This document shows positions 24,255 through 35,114 of a stretch of DNA of 35,114 nt, in pieces. The notes beneath the pieces are model-generated. The model saw only the letters and a list, made by a program, of their open reading frames with translations. It did no database searches and was not told the origin of the DNA. The stretch lies in the NCBI GenBank assembly GCA_016840315.1, contig JAEOSO010000005.1, forward strand, positions 1 through 35,114, in the 5' to 3' direction. A program made the translations under genes and the position numbers. Numbering within the stretch: position 1 is the first letter of the stretch; every line of letters begins with the position of its first letter. This DNA is from Candidatus Borrarchaeota archaeon (lineage in GTDB: Archaea; Asgardarchaeota; Sifarchaeia; Borrarchaeales; Borrarchaeaceae).

Positions 24255-25496
24255 TCATTTTATTACTTCTGCAAGTATCTCTGAAAACGAATAGACTTCT
24301 TCAAAAGTATTGTATAAGGGGTGAGGGGCGACACGAATTATATTTGGCTCCCTCCAATCAACGGTTACGCGTTCTATCAACGTATTAAATAATTTCTTAC
24401 CGTTTTTGAGAGTTCGAATTGAGAGTTGGCATCCTCGCTCATTAGTTTTTGAAGGAGTAATTATCTGGTAATTTTCAGGGCCTAGTTCTTTTATCAAATA
24501 CTCTAAGTAGCCAGTCAATAACTCTCTTTTCTGATGAAAAAGAGATAGATCTTTTAACTGGTCCCAAATATCCAATGCTGCTTTTAAACTTGCCAATAGA
24601 AGTACAGGATGTGTACTAACTTGCCAACCCTCCGCTCCATATGCTGGATTAATGTCTGGTTCCATTAGGAACATGCTCTCACGTTTTCCGCCCCACCATC
24701 CCTCGAACCTATGGAGGTCTTTTTCAAAGTGGCGTTCATGTACGAAACATGCACTTATTCCGCCAGGACCGGCATTAAGATATTTATAATTGCAGAACAC
24801 CGCAAAATCTACATTCCATTTATGCAACTCAAGAGGAATATTCCCGACTGCATGAGCAAGATCGAAGCCAATTATACATCCCTTTTCATGACCTGCTTTC
24901 GTTATTGCTTCCATATCAAATGCTTGACCAGTGAGATAGTTGACTCCAGAAAAAAGAACTAAGGCGAAAGATTCATCTATTGCTTCAATAATGTCTTCCG
25001 TCCTAAGCGTTGCTTCACCAGCTTTAGCCTTAACTTCTAGCAAAGAACCATTAACATCGTAGCCATGAAAACGGATTTGGGATTTAAGGGCATATTCATC
25101 ACTTGGAAAAGTATGTTCTTCAATTAAGATTCGATAGCGTTCTGGTGTAGGACGGTAAAAACTTACTAGAAGAAGATGGAGATTAACAGTCAAAGAATTC
25201 ATTATTGAGACTTCTTCAGGTTTTGCACCTATAATTCGTGCCATGCTTTTTACTAAATCATTTGACATATCCAGCCAGTTTGATGAACCATGAAACCATC
25301 CTTCCACGCCAATTTCTTCCCATGTCTTTAAGATGGTCTCAATTTCTGTTCTTGCGGTTTTTGGTTGAATACCTAATGAGTTACCACAAAAATAAATAAC
25401 GGATTTGGGATAGTGGAACATTGTTCGATATTTAGCTAATGGATCAACCAAATCCATCTCTTTTGCAAACTCTAAACTTCGCTCAAATTCTTTCAT
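24255..25496 (-). CDS. kynU: kynureninase
   Basis: 413-residue PLP enzyme, the usual length, that cleaves kynurenine to anthranilate and alanine. Visible family features: VIYFCGNSLGIQPK near the N-terminus, EEHTFPSDEYALKSQI, VLFSGVNYLTG, GFDLAHAVGN (cofactor-binding Asp), FAVFCNYKYLNAGPGG with the Schiff-base Lys238, and FEGWWGGKRESMF. The ATG lies 24 bases after the HdrB stop, so it may be the last gene of the Hdr operon. No other tryptophan-catabolic or NAD-synthesis gene is in the window. Whether the product feeds NAD/anthranilate synthesis or handles another beta-substituted substrate is open. Confidence 0.93.
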   Translation of the reverse strand: MKEFERSLEFAKEMDLVDPLAKYRTMFHYPKSVIYFCGNSLGIQPKTARTEIETILKTWEEIGVEGWFHGSSNWLDMSNDLVKSMARIIGAKPEEVSIMNSLTVNLHLLLVSFYRPTPERYRILIEEHTFPSDEYALKSQIRFHGYDVNGSLLEVKAKAGEATLRTEDIIEAIDESFALVLFSGVNYLTGQAFDMEAITKAGHEKGCIIGFDLAHAVGNIPLELHKWNVDFAVFCNYKYLNAGPGGISACFVHERHFEKDLHRFEGWWGGKRESMFLMEPDINPAYGAEGWQVSTHPVLLLASLKAALDIWDQLKDLSLFHQKRELLTGYLEYLIKELGPENYQIITPSKTNERGCQLSIRTLKNGKKLFNTLIERVTVDWREPNIIRVAPHPLYNTFEEVYSFSEILAEVIK

Positions 25497-25520: not shown

Positions 25521-26411
25521 TCACTCACTTTTTAAAAGAAATTGAGTAAATTTCATAGCACTTTTAACTCTGTTTTCAAATAAACCGAGTTCCCTGACTC
25601 CGAATCCCATTGAGAGTCCCATTAATTGCGGCAGGTGAAGAACAGGAATTTCATAATCAAGGTTCCAGAGTTCCTTGACCTTTATTTGATTCAAATCTAG
25701 ACTAAGAGAACAAAATGGGCAAATCGTAATAAGTGCACGAAGATCAGCAGCATGTGCAGTCGAAATGATGCGATGCGTAAGTCGCCAAGCAACATCAGGA
25801 TTTACGCTCAGGACGGGTGCGCCGCAACAGGATATTTTCCCCTGATAATCGCCAGCGCTAATTCCAGGGATCATATTTATAATCTCATCCATTTGAACTG
25901 GTCGTTCTGGATCACCATGGTGCATGATTTCGTAAGGTCTGAGCATGTGACAACCATAATATGCTCCAACCTTTAGATCATCTTTGAACGGTATTTTAAG
26001 GTGCTCTTTTATCCTTGCAAGACCGACATCCTCATAAAGAACTTTGAGGAAGTGCTTAACTTCAATTGTGCCTTTATATTCTAGATCAAAGTCTGATAAA
26101 ACGTTGTTAACGTATTCCTTTAAAGTGTCATCTTTTTTCAAAGCGTCATTTGCGTGAATGAGCGAGCCTACACATCCATTACAAAGAGCACAAATATCCA
26201 ATCCCATGTTTTCCGCTGTGGCCAGAACCCTAGCAGCCAGTAAAGTATAGTAATGTTCATCGATTGAACGAATAATTGGAGACCCGCAACATCCTGAATC
26301 AGGGAGGTCAATCAATTCGACACCTAACTCGCTTGCGACTACGCGAGTTGACGCTTCGTACCCATTCATCTTTTCTGGAATCGTGCAACCAAGAAAAAGT
26401 GTGTACTTCAC
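25521..26411 (-). CDS. hdrB: heterodisulfide reductase subunit B-like (HdrB) protein
   Basis: 296 residues with two complete CCG domains that bind the non-cubane [4Fe-4S] clusters used to split disulfides. The first uses Cys9, Cys41-Cys42, Cys74 and Cys77 (LGCTI, SGCCGSP, CALCNGC). The second uses Cys154, Cys195-Cys196, Cys231 and Cys234 (YYGCHMLRPY, ISCCGAP, CPFCSLS). It forms the catalytic subunit with HdrC and is fed electrons by HdrA. The start is GTG 26411 and overlaps the HdrC stop in a GTGA quartet, indicating translational coupling. The natural disulfide partner is unknown; it need not be CoM-S-S-CoB. Confidence 0.93.
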   Translation of the reverse strand: MKYTLFLGCTIPEKMNGYEASTRVVASELGVELIDLPDSGCCGSPIIRSIDEHYYTLLAARVLATAENMGLDICALCNGCVGSLIHANDALKKDDTLKEYVNNVLSDFDLEYKGTIEVKHFLKVLYEDVGLARIKEHLKIPFKDDLKVGAYYGCHMLRPYEIMHHGDPERPVQMDEIINMIPGISAGDYQGKISCCGAPVLSVNPDVAWRLTHRIISTAHAADLRALITICPFCSLSLDLNQIKVKELWNLDYEIPVLHLPQLMGLSMGFGVRELGLFENRVKSAMKFTQFLLKSE

Positions 26412-26944
26412 TCCTTTTCACCACTTTTTTCTTTGAAATGGACTAATACATCGAATTTGATCTTTTCGGCAAGTTTTTTAATCGTATCTGAGTCTGGGGT
26501 AGGGAGTTCTGGTAGTTTGAAGCGAGTTTGGCGTATTTTATTCTCATATTCACCTACTTCGTTCATCAGACCAAATGTTAAGATGTTAGCAGCTATATCT
26601 GGCCACGCATCAGGTAGAATATCCTCTTTCGATGCAATATTCCTCAGTTTCACAATAATCTCAGGAGGCTTGACGTCTTGTGGACAGCGCTCCTCGCAGA
26701 CATAACAGCTTGTGCACAACCAAATGAGCGAATTGTGCAATACTGCGTCTCGGTCGCCCATCATAATTAGCCGAATAATATTTCTTGGGCTAAATTCTTC
26801 GCCACCGAAACGTGCTACAGGACAGCTACCCGTGCATGTCCCGCACTGGTAACAGGCAAAGAGGTCAAATGTAAGGTCCTCGATAAATTCCTCTGCGAGA
26901 CGCAAGTCTACATCTGAAAGTCTTACTACCTTCTCAGTTGTCAC
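26408..26944 (-). CDS. hdrC: heterodisulfide reductase subunit C-like (HdrC) protein
   Basis: 178-residue ferredoxin-like electron wire with two [4Fe-4S] motifs: FACYQCGTCTGSCPV (Cys31, 34, 37, 41) and LCTSCYVCEERCPQ (Cys77, 80, 83, 87). These and the Arg/Pro context after each (EEFSPRNIIRLI; DVKPPEIIVKLR) are typical of HdrC. It should pass electrons from HdrA to HdrB. GTG start three bases after the GcvH-like gene, with AAGGA upstream. It ends inside the HdrB start. Confidence 0.93.
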   Translation of the reverse strand: MTTEKVVRLSDVDLRLAEEFIEDLTFDLFACYQCGTCTGSCPVARFGGEEFSPRNIIRLIMMGDRDAVLHNSLIWLCTSCYVCEERCPQDVKPPEIIVKLRNIASKEDILPDAWPDIAANILTFGLMNEVGEYENKIRQTRFKLPELPTPDSDTIKKLAEKIKFDVLVHFKEKSGEKE

Positions 26945-26947
26945 GCT

Positions 26948-27403
26948 CTATTCCTTCTTCTTTTGTTCTTCCATTTCTTTTTTAACTCGAATAATTTCAG
27001 ATTTTTGCCACTCAATAAATTCGTCCGAACCGCCTTTCATTAGTTTTGAAAGGTCTTCTTGCAAATTAGATGGATTAACTTTGACAAGCCAGCCGAGACC
27101 ATAGGGTTCTTTATTGACAAGAGAGGCATCATCCCATAACGCTTCATTGAAGGCTGTTACTTCGCCATCTACTGGAGCATAAAGTTTACCTGTCCACTTA
27201 CCGCTTTCAAGTGTTCCAAAAGGCTTCATAAATTCTACTGGTTCATCTTCAAATGGTAGTTGCACAGCCTGTACCTTTTCAGCTAGTGCTTGAGCAAAAT
27301 CTGTAATGCCAAACACTACGCTATCTCCTTCGATTTTCACCCAAGAATGTTCAGTAGTATAATATAATTCATCTGGGAGATCATAATCTTCAATTTTTAC
27401 CAT
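26948..27403 (-). CDS. GcvH/LbpA-like lipoyl-carrier protein in an Hdr cluster
   Basis: 151 residues. The lipoyl-domain hallmarks are WVKIEGDSVVFGITDFAQA, then FGTLESGKWTGKLYAPVDGEV with the attachment Lys69 in ESGK, and NKEPYGLGWLVKV. In the glycine cleavage system the H protein shuttles a lipoyl-bound methylamine. Here it sits between the HdrA fusion and HdrC, with no glycine-cleavage P, T or L gene nearby. The same neighbourhood is known for LbpA proteins of the sulfur-oxidising sHdr system. It may therefore carry a substrate or a dithiol/disulfide for the Hdr complex (inference). It has an extra charged C-terminal helix (EWQKSEIIRVKKEMEEQKKK). GGAG precedes the ATG. Confidence 0.88.
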   Translation of the reverse strand: MVKIEDYDLPDELYYTTEHSWVKIEGDSVVFGITDFAQALAEKVQAVQLPFEDEPVEFMKPFGTLESGKWTGKLYAPVDGEVTAFNEALWDDASLVNKEPYGLGWLVKVNPSNLQEDLSKLMKGGSDEFIEWQKSEIIRVKKEMEEQKKKE

Positions 27404-27488
27404 CTTTTCATTCTCCTTTTCAATTCATAGAAATTGTTTTCTTTAAAGGTTATATATAAAGGAGCACCCTGCGTAAGGGAGCTAGTCC

Positions 27489-27520
27489 TTCTCTCAGTCC
27501 CATTGGGTTTCCCAAGAGAA
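27489..27520 (-). promoter_or_regulatory. SECIS element (selenocysteine insertion) in the 3' leader of hdrA-mvhD
   Basis: Eleven bases after the fusion gene's stop. On the minus strand TTCTCTTGG pairs with CTGAGAGAA (9 bp, two wobbles). Then comes an internal loop of GAAA on one side and a single A on the other, then CCC paired with GGG, capped by AAT. The GAA/A bulge below a CCC/GGG stem is the archaeal SECIS signature. Immediately below the stem, ATGA plus A on the 5' side faces GGAC on the 3' side, giving possible tandem sheared G-A pairs like the eukaryotic SECIS core. One element would serve both UGA codons. Confidence 0.85.
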
Positions 27521-27530
27521 TTCATTCCAA

Positions 27531-30500
27531 TTAAGATTCTATTATCCGCGACGGATTGGGCCCAAGTTTGGACACGTTTTTGCCAAAGGATTGCATTGCT
27601 TCTCTAAACTTTTCTGCTTCTGCAGATGACAAGAAGTACATAGCAACTCGTGAGTCACCGAGACCAAGAACTTCGAGTAATTTATTAGCTAATTCAACAG
27701 ATCGTTCAGCCATCAAGTTTCCGTCGATATAATCGCAATCGCCCTTGTGTCATCCAACTACTGCAACGCCATCAGCGCCTTGTGAAAGCGCATTTAAAAT
27801 CCAAGCTGTGTCAACTCGACCAGTACAAGGTACGCGTATTATACGTACACGGTGATCATATTGGAGTTTTGATAGACCAGCCAGATCCGCTGCACCGTAT
27901 CCACACTTTTCACAAGCGAAAACTAGCAATAATGATTTGCGACTCTGGAGCATAGCTTCAATTTGCGGATAAAATTGTTCATCGCGCCAGTATCGAAGTT
28001 CTCTTGCACTAGAAGGACACGCTGCGACACACATACCGCAGCCTTTGCATTCTATTTCATCAGTAGCCGAAACAAGTTTTCCTTCTTCTTTTTCTTCCAG
28101 ATATATTGCGTCGTATGGGCAAGCAGCAACACAAATGGCGCAACCACTACAGAGATCTTGGTCACAAACTGCTTTAATAAGTTCAAGTTGTAGTTCTTTT
28201 TGTCGTAAGAGTACTCCTGATGCCGAAGCAGCAGCCTTACCTAGGGCTATTGAGTCACCTATACTTCGAGGTGAAAGAATTGCTCCAGCGAGATAGATGC
28301 CATCCTTTCTTGTTTCGACAGGCTTAAACTTGATATGAACTGGCTCTATAAAGCCATCAGCCGATCGAGTAACACCAGTCATCTTGCACATATCTTCGAA
28401 ATCTTCAGGTGGTTCCTGTCCAACTGCTAACACTACATAATCTGCGTCGATTTCAAACGCTGTTCTTGACAGAGTGTCATATACTTGAACAACGACATTT
28501 CCATCTTGTCCCTCACTAACGACGGGAGGTTTATCTTCGATCCACCGCATAAAGTTAGTTCGATACTTTTTCCGTGTGGTTAGATAGAACTCCTCCATAT
28601 AACGACCTGCAGGTCGTAAGTCCTCTTTATAGAGAATGAATGTTTGACATTCAGGGAAGAGTTCTTTCACTGCTTGCGCATTTTTCATTGAAGCGCCGCA
28701 ACAAACACGAGAACAATGTACGTTTCCATCTTTTTCCCTTGAACCGACACACTGAATAAAAACTACGCGCTTTGGATCTGGATTTATTGATTTGTCTTTC
28801 AGCATTTGTTCGAATTCAAGTGAGGTTACAACATCCTTAATAGAATTGTAACCATATTCTCCTTCATTAGGCGTGTATATTTTTGTTCCGACTGCTAAGA
28901 TTATAGCGCCAACGTTTACAGCGACTTCTGCGCCATTCTTTGTCCTGATTTGTGCAAGGAAGTTACCAATATGTCCGTCAAGAGATGCTAACGATGCTTC
29001 AAGGTAAATCGAGATATTAGTAGACTGGAGTATCTGAGAAGTTAGTTCGTCTACAATTTGATCGGCTTCGACAAGTTCCGGTGCAATTTTGTAGAGAGAG
29101 TTTAAACGTCCACCAAGTTGTGCTTCCTTTTCAATGATGTGAACATTGAACCTTTGTTGCGATAAATCAAGAGCGGTTGACATTCCGGCTATACCGCCCC
29201 CAATTACTAAGGCCTCATTGATTACCTCTACTGTCCGGTAGGGAACGATTTCAAGATGTAAGGCACGTGAGATGCCAGCTCTGATTAAATCTTTTGCCTT
29301 TTCTGTGGCTTCTTCCGGTGTCTGCATATGCACCTGGGAACTCTGATCTCTAAGATTCACCATCTCGAACAGATATTTATTCAAGCCTGCCTCCTCTACC
29401 GCTTGGCGAAAAGTCGGTTCGTGTAGTAAAGGAGAGCATGATGCAACGATCACTCTATTTAGATTATTTCCCTTGATTGCTTCCTTAATGTCTGCTTGTC
29501 CAGGTTCACTGCAGAAGAATTGATCTTGAGCTGCGTAAACAACGTTAGGCAGTGTTTTTACATAGTCTATAACTTCGGGTACATCAGTGTAATTAGAAAT
29601 GTTACCACCACAATGACATACAAAAACGCCAAGTCTTGTTTCGCCAGAAATATCCAACTCTGTCTCTGGTACTGACGGTTTAATATACGGGGGACGACTA
29701 TCTAGAAAACTTATCGCTGACGAAGCCGCAGCTCTTGCCTGAGTGACTGTATCTACCGCATCTTTTGAACCAGTTGCTACTCCTGCCAAAAAGATTCCTG
29801 GTTGGGACGTTTCAATCGGATGATAACTATTTAGCTGCTTAGGAAATCCGTCCACACCTAAATCAATCCCTAAGAGGTTGCACAGATCAATCGTTCCTTT
29901 AGAAGGAACAAATGAGCAATTTAGGACAACTAGAGCGATATCTCTAATTTCTGAGATTTCTCCAGTGTCGGTATCTTCATTCCAGACAATTAGATTTCTT
30001 GTTTCAGCGTTTTCTTGTATTTCTGCAACCTTTCCACGTACGAAATTCACATCATATTTCTCTTTAGTCTGTCTATAGTATTCTTCGTAGAGTTTTCCAG
30101 TAGTACGCATATCAATATAGCAAATATCTGCTTTTCCCTCATTTACTTGGAGTCTATATGCTCTAGCCTGTTTTAATGCCCACATGCAGCAAACTCTATT
30201 ACAGAATTCATTGCCTTCTTTAGCACTTCTAGAACCTACGCATTGAACCCAGAGAATACTTTGTGGTACATTTCCATCAGATGGCCTCACTATTTTACCA
30301 GTGCTCGGTCCTGTAGGATGAAGTAAACGCTCATATTGAAGCGATGTAATGACATTTGGGTAGATTCCGTAACCAAAGTGCTTTAATTGACTTGGATCGA
30401 ATTCATCAAATCCAGTAGCCATTACTATAGAACCAACTTGAATCTCAAAACTCGTTTCTTTTTCATCAAAGTTAACCGCGTCTGCAGGGCAGATTTTTTG

Positions 30501-31025
30501 ACAAATCTGGCAGATTCCGTATTTGAAGTAAAGGCAATGGGCTGAATCAATTTTGTACACAAGCGGAACTGCTTGTGGAAATGGCACATATATAGCACTT
30601 TTGTTATCAAAAGATTCATTGTATTCATTTGGCGTCTTTATTGGACAATTCTGAGTACATAAACCGCATCCTGTGCATTTCTCTTCATTGACATAGCGCG
30701 GGTTTCGCTTTATCTTAACCTTCCAGTTTCCTGGATAACCTGAGATTGATTCTATCTCAGATAAGGTTAATACATTGATGTTTTCCGTTCGTGCAACATT
30801 TGCCATTAACGGAGCGAGAGGTCACGCCGAACATTCGTCTGTAGGAAATATTTTGTAGATTTGGCTGTATCGTCCACCAATTGTTTCTTGCTTTTCCACC
30901 AAAAATGCAGTGTACCCTTGATTCGCAATGTCTAGCGAGGCATACATTCCAGCCATACCGCCGCCGATAACTAGTATTGAAGTACTGGGATCACTTGTAA
31001 CCTTTTCATTTTCCAATGCATTCAT
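27531..31025 (-). CDS. hdrA: selenocysteine-containing tandem HdrA-HdrA-MvhD fusion protein (UGA read as Sec at two positions)
   Basis: One reading frame of 1164 residues, interrupted only by UGA at 30822-30824 (U68) and 27750-27752 (U1092). Order: a first FAD module (SILVIGGGMAGMYASLDI, residue ~17), DECSA-U at 64-68 matching the family's conserved DC-x2-C, and [4Fe-4S] motifs from ~117. A complete second HdrA follows: CHCGGN at ~470, a second FAD fingerprint VIGGGIAGMS at ~607, and a two-cluster ferredoxin (CSGCAICVAACPY, CKGCGMCVAACPS). The MvhD domain comes last, where VAVVG-U-HKGDCDYIDGN matches the family's GC-x2-GDCHY. HdrA is the flavin bifurcation subunit and MvhD links it to a hydrogenase or dehydrogenase. 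GGAGG precedes ATG 31025. UGA is an ordinary stop elsewhere here, for example for HdrC. Confidence 0.9.
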
Positions 31026-31256: not shown

Positions 31257-32444
31257 TCACCGGTAAGAATCAACTATACCTGCTGAATAAGCAACGAGCC
31301 TTGGCAATTCCAACACTCTAATGCGCTCTCTGTAAGCCCGCATACCGATAGAGTGATGACATGTAGGACAAGTAGTGAGAATATACTGTACTCCTAACTT
31401 AGCTGCATCTTTTACTATTTCATCGCTTAGATCATTTCTTAGTTCAGTATATGGGACACGGATAGGTCCACCACAACATCTCGCATCGCCTTTAGTTTCA
31501 GGTAACTCGACGAATTCAACACCTGGAATGCTTTCTATGATCTTCCGAGGGGCATCGTATTTCAGTGCATACCTCCCGAGATGGCACGGATCCTTGAAGG
31601 TAACCTTTCCTTCAAGTGGCTTTGTCAGTTTTATTTTACCCTCGTCGATTAAACGTGTGAGCACTTCCGAAATGTGATATGCTTTTGGAGCATCCTCTGA
31701 GATAGCTTTATAATCCTCATTGAAGACTGAAGCGCACATCGGACATGCTGTAATAATAGTCTCAATCCCTTGCGATTTAAAGAGTTCGATGTTTTTCTTA
31801 GCAGCTTTCTCAAAATATGGTTTGAATCCTAACCAATTAAGAAATCCTGCGCAGCAATCCTCTGCATCGAGCATCGTAAAATCTTCGCCAGCCTCTTTCA
31901 AGAGTTTAACTCCAGCAAGTGAATTGTCGGGATAATCTATGGTCCCTACACAACCAGCGTAATAGAGCGTAGAAGATTCCTTTGGTAAGGTTGCTTTTAT
32001 TTCGCCAAAAACCTCGTTGAAAACGACAGGGTAATCCTGTCCATGGGTATTTCCTTTCTCAAGAATATTGTCAGCAATGCTCCTATGCTCTGAAAGCGTA
32101 TAATCGTTATCGGCTAAATAAACGCGCACGCTATCCATAACGTCTGTCACTTTTATTTTTGCTGGACAGTGCTCCTCACACTTTTTGCACAAAGTACACG
32201 TGTAGAGAATTTCCATTGCATAATCATCAATGGGAAATCCCCCTTCAATGAGAGCTCGCTCTAGCATGATCCTTCCTCGACAGTTGTAACTGTCCACCTG
32301 TGTAGCATCAAAAATCGGACATGCAAACCGACAAAATCCACATCTTACGCATCTATACGTTTCTGTTTCAGCATCATCTTCAATTACCATTTTCTTGTAT
32401 TTTGGTTCCAGCATTGTACCTGAAACCACATCTTCTTGCGTCAT
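31257..32444 (-). CDS. HdrD/GlcF-like iron-sulfur subunit
   Basis: 395 residues from ATG 32444, fixed by GGAGGATGC upstream and lying two bases after the GlcD stop; the longer frame to 32507 would overlap GlcD. Two ferredoxin motifs come first (YRCVRCGFCRFACPIF and YTCTLCKKCEEHCPAK). Two CCG domains follow: YYAGCVG, AEDCCAGF, ACPMC, and then DPCHLGRY, ARCCGGP, TCPTCHH. HdrD combines HdrC- and HdrB-like parts in one chain. Paired with a GlcD-like flavoprotein, such proteins form lactate/glycolate-type dehydrogenases that pass electrons to quinone or to a disulfide. Confidence 0.92.
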   Translation of the reverse strand: MTQEDVVSGTMLEPKYKKMVIEDDAETETYRCVRCGFCRFACPIFDATQVDSYNCRGRIMLERALIEGGFPIDDYAMEILYTCTLCKKCEEHCPAKIKVTDVMDSVRVYLADNDYTLSEHRSIADNILEKGNTHGQDYPVVFNEVFGEIKATLPKESSTLYYAGCVGTIDYPDNSLAGVKLLKEAGEDFTMLDAEDCCAGFLNWLGFKPYFEKAAKKNIELFKSQGIETIITACPMCASVFNEDYKAISEDAPKAYHISEVLTRLIDEGKIKLTKPLEGKVTFKDPCHLGRYALKYDAPRKIIESIPGVEFVELPETKGDARCCGGPIRVPYTELRNDLSDEIVKDAAKLGVQYILTTCPTCHHSIGMRAYRERIRVLELPRLVAYSAGIVDSYR

Positions 32445-32446
32445 CT

Positions 32447-33880
32447 CTAAGCATCCTCCAAAATATTGATTCTTTGACCTGGAATTGGGATTATGTGCCC
32501 CGGACAAAGAATGTTCTTAGGGTCAAACGCGTCCTTGATCTTCTTTTTGAGCTCAAGCACTTTAGGTTGATGTTCAACGGGCATCATCATGAGCTTGGAA
32601 ACACCAATTCCATGTTCCCCGGTGACTGTCCCTTCTAACTCAATCGCCGCATGCCACAAATCAACTAGTGTTTGCAATGCTCTTCGATGTTCATCCGGAT
32701 CTCTTTCATCCCAGAGTAAAATAGGGTGTAAGTTTCCGTCTCCTGCGTGACCGAACGTGGCAATCTCAATCCCATTCTTTTCGCTTACTCTATCAATTTC
32801 TTGGAACATGGCAGGTAAGTTTTTCAGAGGTACTGATACGTCCTCCATTCGTGCCGTTGGACGTCGAAGTGTTAGTGCTGGAAATGCAGCCTTTCTTGCA
32901 GCCCAGACTTGTGTACATGTTTCCAGATCTCGCGCTGTTTCGGATTTGATTGCTCCCATCTCCTTGAACAAAACTTCCAGTTTATCAAGCCGCATCTCTA
33001 CGTCATCTCGATTTCCATCTAGTTCCACGAGGACAACAGCTCCGCATTCGGGGAATTTTAAGGTTCCTGAATATTCTTCCACTGCTTTAAGGGTCTTATA
33101 GTCGAGTATTTCTGTTCCTGAGGGGTCAAACCCTCTCTTAATGATTTCTCTGACACACTTTCCTGCTTCAAAAGCAGAATTGAAATAACCACTTGCCACA
33201 AGGCGGACTGCAGGCAAAGGCTGTATTTTGAGCATTGCCTTGGTAATAATACCGAGAGTCCCTTCTGACCCTACAAATAGAGAAACAAGATCGTAGCCGC
33301 ATACAAATTTAATAGCCTTGTTGCCGATATTAATGACATTTCCGTCCGCTAGAACGACTTCCAGACCCATGATCCATTCCTCCGTAACGCCGTACTTAAG
33401 GGCTCTGATGCCTCCGGAGTTGTTGTTTATCATGCCACCAATGGTCGCCGTTTTGTCGCTTGCAGGATCTGGCGGAAAATAGAAGCCATAGGGCTCTAAG
33501 TAGGTATTAAGGTCTAGACATACGATTCCTGGCTCAACAGTTATTAGAAAATTCTCAACATCGAAATCTACAACTTTATTCATCCTTGCGAGCACCAAAA
33601 TCAAACAATCAGGCTTTGCAGGGATGACGCCTCCACTGACGTTGCTTCCAGCCCCTCTTGGAATAATTGAGAATCCTTCTTCATTAGCTAGTTTCACGAT
33701 ATCTGCAACCTCTTCTGTGGTATTAACAAAGGCCACAGCAGCTGGCATACCTACATCAATGCTAGCGTCGCGCGAGTATATGTATAGGTCGATCGCGTGG
33801 TTTAAAACATTGTCCTCTCCAGCTATTTTCTTTAATTTTGGGATGATTACACCATCCCAGTTTAATAAATGTTTTTCCAT
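32447..33880 (-). CDS. GlcD/lactate-dehydrogenase-type FAD-linked oxidase
   Basis: 477 residues, the size of GlcD/Dld flavoproteins. FAD_binding_4 domain: the PP-loop IIPRGAGSNVSGG, VEPGIVCLDLNTYLEPYGFY and KTATIGGMINNNSGG, with GSEGTLGIITKAMLKIQP closing it. The C-terminal FAD-oxidase domain contains IATFGHAGDGNLHPILL, then GTVTGEHGIGVSK and a final FDPKNILCPG. Substrate: a 2-hydroxyacid such as glycolate or D-lactate; the sequence alone cannot decide. It is the first gene of the minus-strand redox cluster. The ATG at 33880 has no good ribosome site, but a strong one stands 22 bases upstream (see separate entry). Confidence 0.93.
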   Translation of the reverse strand: MEKHLLNWDGVIIPKLKKIAGEDNVLNHAIDLYIYSRDASIDVGMPAAVAFVNTTEEVADIVKLANEEGFSIIPRGAGSNVSGGVIPAKPDCLILVLARMNKVVDFDVENFLITVEPGIVCLDLNTYLEPYGFYFPPDPASDKTATIGGMINNNSGGIRALKYGVTEEWIMGLEVVLADGNVINIGNKAIKFVCGYDLVSLFVGSEGTLGIITKAMLKIQPLPAVRLVASGYFNSAFEAGKCVREIIKRGFDPSGTEILDYKTLKAVEEYSGTLKFPECGAVVLVELDGNRDDVEMRLDKLEVLFKEMGAIKSETARDLETCTQVWAARKAAFPALTLRRPTARMEDVSVPLKNLPAMFQEIDRVSEKNGIEIATFGHAGDGNLHPILLWDERDPDEHRRALQTLVDLWHAAIELEGTVTGEHGIGVSKLMMMPVEHQPKVLELKKKIKDAFDPKNILCPGHIIPIPGQRINILEDA

Positions 33881-34091: not shown

Positions 34092-34436
34092 GATCGTCAA
34101 CTACCCCACCCAAAGGGTAGGGGCTTGTTCAAAACACAAGTCCCTTAGTTGATTAGAGGGCTTCTCAGGTATGTGAGATGCAGTAGTTGTTTAGGTTATG
34201 ACACCCTGGGGTGTTCCACTAGCCCCCTGCTCTGTCGTCGGTGGTTAAAAGTTCTGAGGGGTAGGAACGGTGCTGCCGATGTAAAAAGCCTTTACAACAG
34301 CCTCGAAGTGGACTTACGCCTTGGTGTTGGGCGGACGGGACTTGCGAGTTCCCGTTATTACAACACCACAATGTCTCTATTAAGAAAAGAACCGCAATTC
34401 CTCTCCCCGCTAAAGCTGGGGAGTTCCTTGCGGTGG
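34092..34436 (+). mobile_element. non-autonomous IS200/IS605-like element (MITE/PATE type)
   Basis: About 345 bases bounded by two subterminal hairpins. The left hairpin CCCCACCC-AAA-GGGT(A)GGGG occupies 34104-34123 inside GTCAACTACCCC. The right one has an outer stem ACCGCAA/TTGCGGT (34391-34397 with 34428-34434) and an inner stem CTCCCCGC/GC(T)GGGGAG. Both ends are of the IS200/IS605 kind and there is no transposase or TnpB frame. The interior is G-rich compared with the surrounding AT-rich DNA, which suggests it came with the element; it may be a former noncoding guide-RNA/3' segment of a TnpB-type element (inference). A 107-codon open frame across it (34149-34469) runs through both stems and is not a gene. 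Confidence 0.6.
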
Positions 34437-34461: not shown

Positions 34462-35114
34462 TTGAGTGAAAAACCTAAAGTCTTTGTTTCTCGTATAATC
34501 CCAAAGCCAGCTTTAGATATGATCGATGTTGAGTGTGAGATGGAACTTAATGAAAGTGATATTCCTCTTACACAGGCAGAGTTTATAGAAAAAATGAAAG
34601 GTCTCGACGGACTTGTCTGTTTACTAACAGATGCTATCAATCGTGACATTTTACAAACGGTGAAAGATGCAAATCCAAATCTCAAAGTAGTTAGTAATGT
34701 AGCTGTGGGCTATAATAACATAGACTGGAAAGCAGCGACAGAGTTAGGTATAGCAGTAACTAATACACCTGGTGTTTTAGATGACACGACTGCGGACTTT
34801 ACATGGGCAATTATTATGGCCGTGGCGCGGAGAGTGGTAGAAGCTGATAAGTATTTCCGTAAAAAGACATGGAAGGGCTGGGGAATCATGCAATTTCTTG
34901 GTTCTGATGTTTACGGAAAAACGCTGGGTATCGTAGGAGTTGGACGTATCGGACGTGTCGTTGCGAAAAGAGCGCAGGGATTTGACATGAAAGTTCTTTA
35001 CACTGATGTTATACGGTTCGAGGATCTAGAAAAAGAATTTGGAATCCAATATGTGGACAAAGAGACGCTTCTCAGAGAAAGTGACTATGTGACGTTGCAT
35101 GTTCCATTGCTTCC
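34462..35114 (+). CDS. D-2-hydroxyacid dehydrogenase, glyoxylate-reductase-like (partial, runs off window)
   Basis: 217 complete codons from a TTG start with GAGGG about seven bases upstream; the end lies beyond the window. N-terminal catalytic part begins KPKVFVSRIIPKPALDMID. GLVCLLTDAINRDIL and VVSNVAVGYNNIDWKAATEL follow, then NTPGVLDDTTADFTWAIIMA, typical of glyoxylate/hydroxypyruvate reductases. The NAD(P)-binding Rossmann motif is GKTLGIVGVGRIGRVVAKRA, followed by the loop DVIRFEDLEKEF and the start of the substrate/helix region. It should reduce glyoxylate or a similar 2-keto acid using NAD(P)H. The IS200/IS605-like element ends about 25 bases upstream of the start, so it may have altered this promoter. 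Confidence 0.88.
   Translation, partial: MSEKPKVFVSRIIPKPALDMIDVECEMELNESDIPLTQAEFIEKMKGLDGLVCLLTDAINRDILQTVKDANPNLKVVSNVAVGYNNIDWKAATELGIAVTNTPGVLDDTTADFTWAIIMAVARRVVEADKYFRKKTWKGWGIMQFLGSDVYGKTLGIVGVGRIGRVVAKRAQGFDMKVLYTDVIRFEDLEKEFGIQYVDKETLLRESDYVTLHVPLL

Follow-up and report, generated by a model that had tools for sequence, protein, structure and literature searches.

The window, i.e. the 35,114 nucleotides of Borrarchaeota contig JAEOSO010000005.1 that were analysed, encodes a GcvH-fold lipoyl protein that is probably the dedicated carrier of an HdrABC-MvhD electron-bifurcating complex. We propose that its lipoyl dithiol would shuttle electrons between GlcF and HdrB, replacing CoM and CoB, and we place the probability of this reading at roughly 0.57. 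The gene lies within a seven-gene minus-strand operon in the order glcD-glcF-hdrA~mvhD-gcvH-hdrC-hdrB-kynureninase, with two UGA codons in hdrA~mvhD. The features in the window are:

24255-25496, minus strand: kynureninase, the final gene of the operon (TIGR01814, 437 bits, above the cut-off of 246); kept at loci L040 and L047.
25521-26411, minus strand: HdrB-like protein (TIGR03288, 277.7 bits, under the curated cut-off).
26408-26944, minus strand: HdrC-like 4Fe-4S dicluster protein (TIGR03290, 112.8 bits, E 1e-32, under the curated cut-off).
26948-27403, minus strand: gcvH, the GcvH-fold lipoyl carrier of KW type (ESGKW, lipoyl Lys69).
27404-27530, minus strand: candidate SECIS (eSECIS-like) in the gap between hdrA~mvhD and gcvH, a conserved stem-loop block with an apical GGAAA and a fold z-score of only -1.5 to -2.0.
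27531-31025, minus strand: HdrA fused to MvhD/FlpD, 1164 amino acids (HdrA2 model NF040770, 1131.9 bits against a cut-off of 1100; FlpD, 154 bits).
31257-32507, minus strand: GlcF/TfrB/HdrD-like iron-sulfur protein with two CCG domains (best NCBIfam match TfrB, 166 bits, under the cut-off).
32447-33880, minus strand: GlcD-like FAD-linked 2-hydroxyacid oxidoreductase (TIGR00387, 436 bits, under the cut-off of 567.9; FAD_binding_4 and FAD-oxidase_C domains).
34462-35112, plus strand: divergent D-2-hydroxyacid dehydrogenase running off the contig end, assigned by eye from the sequence, with a neighbour 88-89% identical at loci L076 and L077.

The stop codon of hdrA~mvhD is followed by 127 bp before gcvH, and gcvH by 3 bp before hdrC; hdrC and hdrB overlap. 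Two in-frame UGA codons are read through in hdrA~mvhD (Sec68 and Sec1092), and both remain UGA in two related genomes (L076 and L077). Both UGA codons of the fused reading frame would be decoded with the help of the candidate SECIS; an apical GGAAA motif has been described for the SECIS elements of Borrarchaeales hdrA and frhD (PMC11227280). By cysteine spacing, both C-x(n)-CC-x(n)-CxxC (CCG) motifs of the HdrB-like protein are intact; these are the expected sites of non-cubane clusters. The operon contains what is expected of an HdrABC-MvhD bifurcating complex, i.e. an HdrA2-type HdrA with MvhD, HdrC and a two-CCG HdrB, with HdrB and HdrC scoring under the methanogen equivalog cut-offs. The initial annotation of this DNA had placed a Sec-bearing HdrA of bifurcating type alongside the carrier, which is confirmed by the HdrA2 score and the conserved UGA codons. 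It was also right that Hdr genes surround the carrier, but it overlooked glcD and glcF upstream, the kynureninase downstream and the divergent D-2-hydroxyacid dehydrogenase. A HEARO RNA (RF02033, 128.7 bits) lies at 34096-34317 on the plus strand between glcD and the divergent dehydrogenase, and is not followed by an IscB-type reading frame.

The same seven-gene order is found in Candidatus Borrarchaeum weybense and B. yapensis, making three species in total, and the GcvH of the conserved operon is 79 and 77% identical, respectively, to the window protein. The divergent dehydrogenase adjoins glcD in all three. We also note that the kynureninase gene is directly 3' of hdrB in three Borrarchaeum genomes.

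The carrier is a protein of 151 amino acids beginning at ATG. It matches the full Pfam GCV_H domain over residues 13-124 (118 bits), and contains no cysteine anywhere in its length. Lys69 lies in the segment GTLESGKWTG and is invariant across the close set of relatives, so that the lipoylation site reported initially as ESGK is intact. The suggested likeness to LbpA is seen at this site, since LbpA of the Sulfolobaceae type has ES[GA]KW there.

The genome from which the window comes has three LplA-family genes, and two for LipS1 that score above the cut-off. Two of its loci (C26 and C34) each carry LplA, LipS1 and LipS2, and one of these also LipT, where LipS2 and LipT were assigned by similarity. 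With these sets lipoylation of the carrier is predicted to be possible. The initial annotation had suggested a search for lplA and lipS genes beside other copies of the carrier; they do adjoin many of these, but in the window genome they lie elsewhere, unlinked to the operon.

We define the KW type of carrier by a tryptophan directly after the lipoyl lysine. When GTDB species were scanned for relatives of the closest carriers, 80 loci were recovered from Asgard archaea, other archaea and many bacterial phyla. Most of these carriers have the tryptophan, like the window protein; the scan was partly seeded with GKW, so this frequency arises by construction, while the neighbour counts do not. The commonest neighbour is GlcF, followed by LplA, GlcD, HdrA and HdrB/C. 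The recurrent radical-SAM neighbours match the NCBIfam models for LipS2 (202 against 270 bits) and LipS1 (220 against 230), and the recurrent ligase those for lipoate-protein ligase, in each case under the cut-off. At 40 of the 80 loci the carrier has an Hdr, Glc, Lip or Tus gene on its own strand no more than 350 bases away; these include a locus (L103) that has a second, glycine-cleavage-linked H protein. This locus, on a WOR-3 contig, has a KW carrier behind TusBCD-like genes together with a separate GcvT-GcvH-GcvP set whose H protein has EAVKA. The label MtrH for one neighbour cluster was dropped, as it had no NCBIfam match.

GlcF or HdrB is a neighbour of 54 of 107 KW carriers outside Sulfolobaceae, in many cases as the very next gene in the same orientation. 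The pairing is seen in Deltaproteobacteria, Thermoplasmata, Chloroflexi, Sumerlaeota, Actinobacteria and Asgard archaea. Comparison with proteins having alanine or threonine after the lysine (K[AT]), the site of nearly all H proteins linked to GcvP or GcvT, separates the two types by their neighbours, with p-values that are indicative only because the rows are related by kinship: GcvP or GcvT is found beside 2/125 KW against 11/38 K[AT] proteins (p 1.7e-6), LplA beside 51/125 against 3/38 (p 7e-5) and GlcF beside 43/125 against 2/38 (p 3e-4). HdrB does not part the two (p 0.79). Some K[AT]-type GcvH copies are also near HdrBC, so that KW is an imperfect divider, and about half of the KW carriers have no recognised Hdr or GlcF gene within 6 kb. 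In an Asgard sample collected by BLAST rather than by motif, a CCG-domain neighbour was found for 8 of the 12 KW carriers whose motif could be clearly read, and a P or T neighbour for none of them. GcvP above the cut-off is missing from 13 of 30 genomes with KW carriers, including the closed chromosome CP070770.1; many genomes with KW carriers also possess the glycine cleavage system.

Borrarchaeum genomes have five to nine GcvH-like paralogs each, several of them adjoining Hdr or GlcDF genes; there are five in the window genome and eight in B. weybense. In the latter, five of the eight have a CCG domain at most 4 kb away, a zone that makes up 4.8% of the genome (p=1.3e-5). Some paralogs in the window genome and its relatives (L036-L054) have odd lipoyl-site motifs, i.e. 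DSSKG, DSWKG, EAGKY and KSNKT. In four genomes an ESVKT-type GcvH occurs with a pyridine nucleotide-disulfide oxidoreductase, with HdrBC near (L036, 5535-7551; also L044, L052 and L058); this is a possible lipoamide reductase pair.

In the mechanism that we propose, the LplA, LipS1 and LipS2 of the cell would lipoylate the carrier. Its disulfide/dithiol would then act as a two-electron shuttle linking the CCG domains of GlcF (in GlcDF) with those of HdrB, and this role would explain why carriers recur beside both. HdrC would hand electrons to HdrA, whose flavin, by analogy with its family, would confurcate or bifurcate with ferredoxin and MvhD. TfrB is the subunit that oxidises the thiols of CoM-SH and CoB-SH, and protein-bound lipoate would fill the place of these methanogen thiols. 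The likeliest direction is from 2-hydroxyacid through GlcDF, lipoyl and HdrBC to HdrA, with intake of reduced ferredoxin; the reverse may also occur. The potential of the lactate/pyruvate couple is about -0.19 V, so that electron transfer from it to lipoyl is uphill without coupling. The lipoyl potential is -0.29 V, and a redox role has been considered for LbpA (PMC6067878). With lipoamide at this potential, hydroxyacid oxidation would need ferredoxin-driven confurcation at HdrA, or else the system may run in reverse.

The lipoyl group might alternatively bear persulfide sulfur, or another group, and offer it at the Hdr site, in line with the model put forward for sHdr. The ESGKW site is shared with LbpA2 of Sulfolobaceae-type genomes, TusBCD-like genes adjoin some KW carriers (L083, L100, L103 and L109), and the window genome encodes LipS1, LipS2 and LplA. 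Two ES[AG]KW carriers are found in each of the complete Thermoproteota genomes that encode an sHdr cluster, TusA, DsrE, LipS1, LipS2 and LplA; these carriers are called LbpA, and their genomes Sulfolobaceae-type, by gene content. However, TusA, DsrE and sHdr-type genes were not recognised in the window operon, its HdrA is of the HdrA2-MvhD bifurcating type, and the carrier is without cysteine where most LbpA proteins have two. The initial annotation had suggested that the Hdr disulfide site may act on lipoyl-bound substrate in place of CoM-S-S-CoB, and this is supported in part. With a GlcDF oxidoreductase in the operon, a dithiol that carries electrons is a better fit than one that carries a sulfur substrate, and we regard sulfur carriage as unlikely.

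We think it decidedly improbable that the protein carries a C1 or acyl group, in a methylamine or kynurenine-derived pathway, with Hdr handling the released dithiol. The kynureninase of the operon is consistent with such a role, and gcvH occurs beside methyltransferase genes in Atabeyarchaeia and Freyarchaeia (PMC11291895), but neither a methyltransferase nor an acyltransferase was recognised in the operon, and at other loci the genes that most often adjoin the carriers are GlcF, LplA and GlcD.

A further alternative is that the protein is a GcvH of glycine cleavage, or of a lipoyl relay, that sits by chance among the genes of an Hdr operon, P, T and L being encoded elsewhere. It passes the GcvH subfamily model NF002270 (122.2 bits against a cut-off of 117), but fails the GcvH model TIGR00527 (103.6 against 115.85) and lacks the ESVK[AT] motif. 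The window genome has an E3-like gene and a 2-oxoacid dehydrogenase set, the latter with its own LplA; no dihydrolipoamide dehydrogenase was found there above the curated cut-off, the best candidate scoring 335 against 409 bits. P and T had been reported missing from the neighbourhood, and a family-by-family search extends this to the whole window genome, which is 77% complete. Both are also absent from B. weybense (listed as 100% complete, with 8% contamination). In B. yapensis P and T are present and flank a separate GcvH of ESVKA type (L048), so they keep an H protein of their own. The outcome that would have counted against the initial annotation, P, T and L genes lacking another H protein, is not what these genomes contain, and from the genes of these two species it is very unlikely that the carrier serves glycine cleavage.

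Phylogeny, which the initial annotation had proposed as a check, is compatible with descent from either GcvH or LbpA. In a tree of 100 GcvH-like proteins the P/T-linked H proteins group with their ESVK relatives, and the window protein lies outside them among the KW rows, nearest to GlcDF-linked carriers of Thermoplasmata and Methanomassiliicoccales; LbpA1 and LbpA2 occupy separate positions. With too few alignment columns for a decision, AU tests reject neither grouping of the window protein with GcvH (p 0.495) nor that with Sulfolobaceae-type LbpA (p 0.643).

Adjacency by chance with no functional link is rejected at the level of gene order by the conservation in three species, and with the pairing repeated in distant phyla it is scarcely credible.

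The reading of the protein as a redox carrier for HdrABC-MvhD can be extended. Among anaerobic archaea and bacteria in general, protein-bound lipoate might be a shared thiol currency for redox reactions, with KW carriers made by LplA, LipS1 and LipS2 ferrying electrons between CCG-domain enzymes (GlcDF, HdrABC and others) in place of CoM and CoB. We advance this tentatively, and would not give it even odds. If true, it would also explain much of the LipS1 and LipS2 outside sulfur oxidisers; sHdr is present in just 8% of archaea bearing LipS1/S2 (PMC10332631). Two studies call the Hdr disulfide of non-methanogenic archaea unidentified (PMC11291895, PMC9723716). A KW family linked to Hdr and LipS1/S2 offers one testable answer both to the identity of that disulfide and to the use of most LipS1/S2 lipoate. 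Lipoate would then matter beyond sulfur oxidation, in the metabolism of hydroxyacids and in electron bifurcation, also in the Asgard relatives of eukaryotes.

Two related associations are already known. The sHdr-LbpA system is established (PMC6067878, PMC10332631), and it resembles that of the window in that a lipoyl protein of GcvH fold is associated with Hdr proteins and with LplA, LipS1 and LipS2; LbpA of Sulfolobaceae-type genomes has an ES[GA]KW site. It differs in the Hdr partner, in the linkage of the lipoate genes, in the presence of Tus and DsrE, and in the N- and C-terminal cysteines of LbpA (some archaeal LbpA excepted). For the Ehe cluster of Culexarchaeia, a published study (PMC9723716) already proposes the GcvH lipoyl as the disulfide of HdrB; no family-wide analysis was found there. 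GcvH again occurs with HdrA2B2C2/HdrB, the host being a non-methanogen without full CoM/CoB synthesis; according to the same study that cluster has a membrane hydrogenase, SdhA and CdhA, whereas the window operon has GlcDF, the MvhD fusion, selenocysteine and kynureninase. No paper tying such carriers to GlcDF or defining a KW group was found in the open-access literature. The GcvH of glycine cleavage shares the fold, the lipoyl lysine and the overall sequence, but has K[AT] in place of KW, and in the genus P and T occur only beside another H protein. The methanogen HdrABC-MvhADG and TfrAB systems share the HdrA/B/C/MvhD architecture and the disulfide chemistry of CCG domains, and TfrB is the best match of GlcF. 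The window genome differs in being without McrA, and here the lipoyl protein would replace CoM and CoB.
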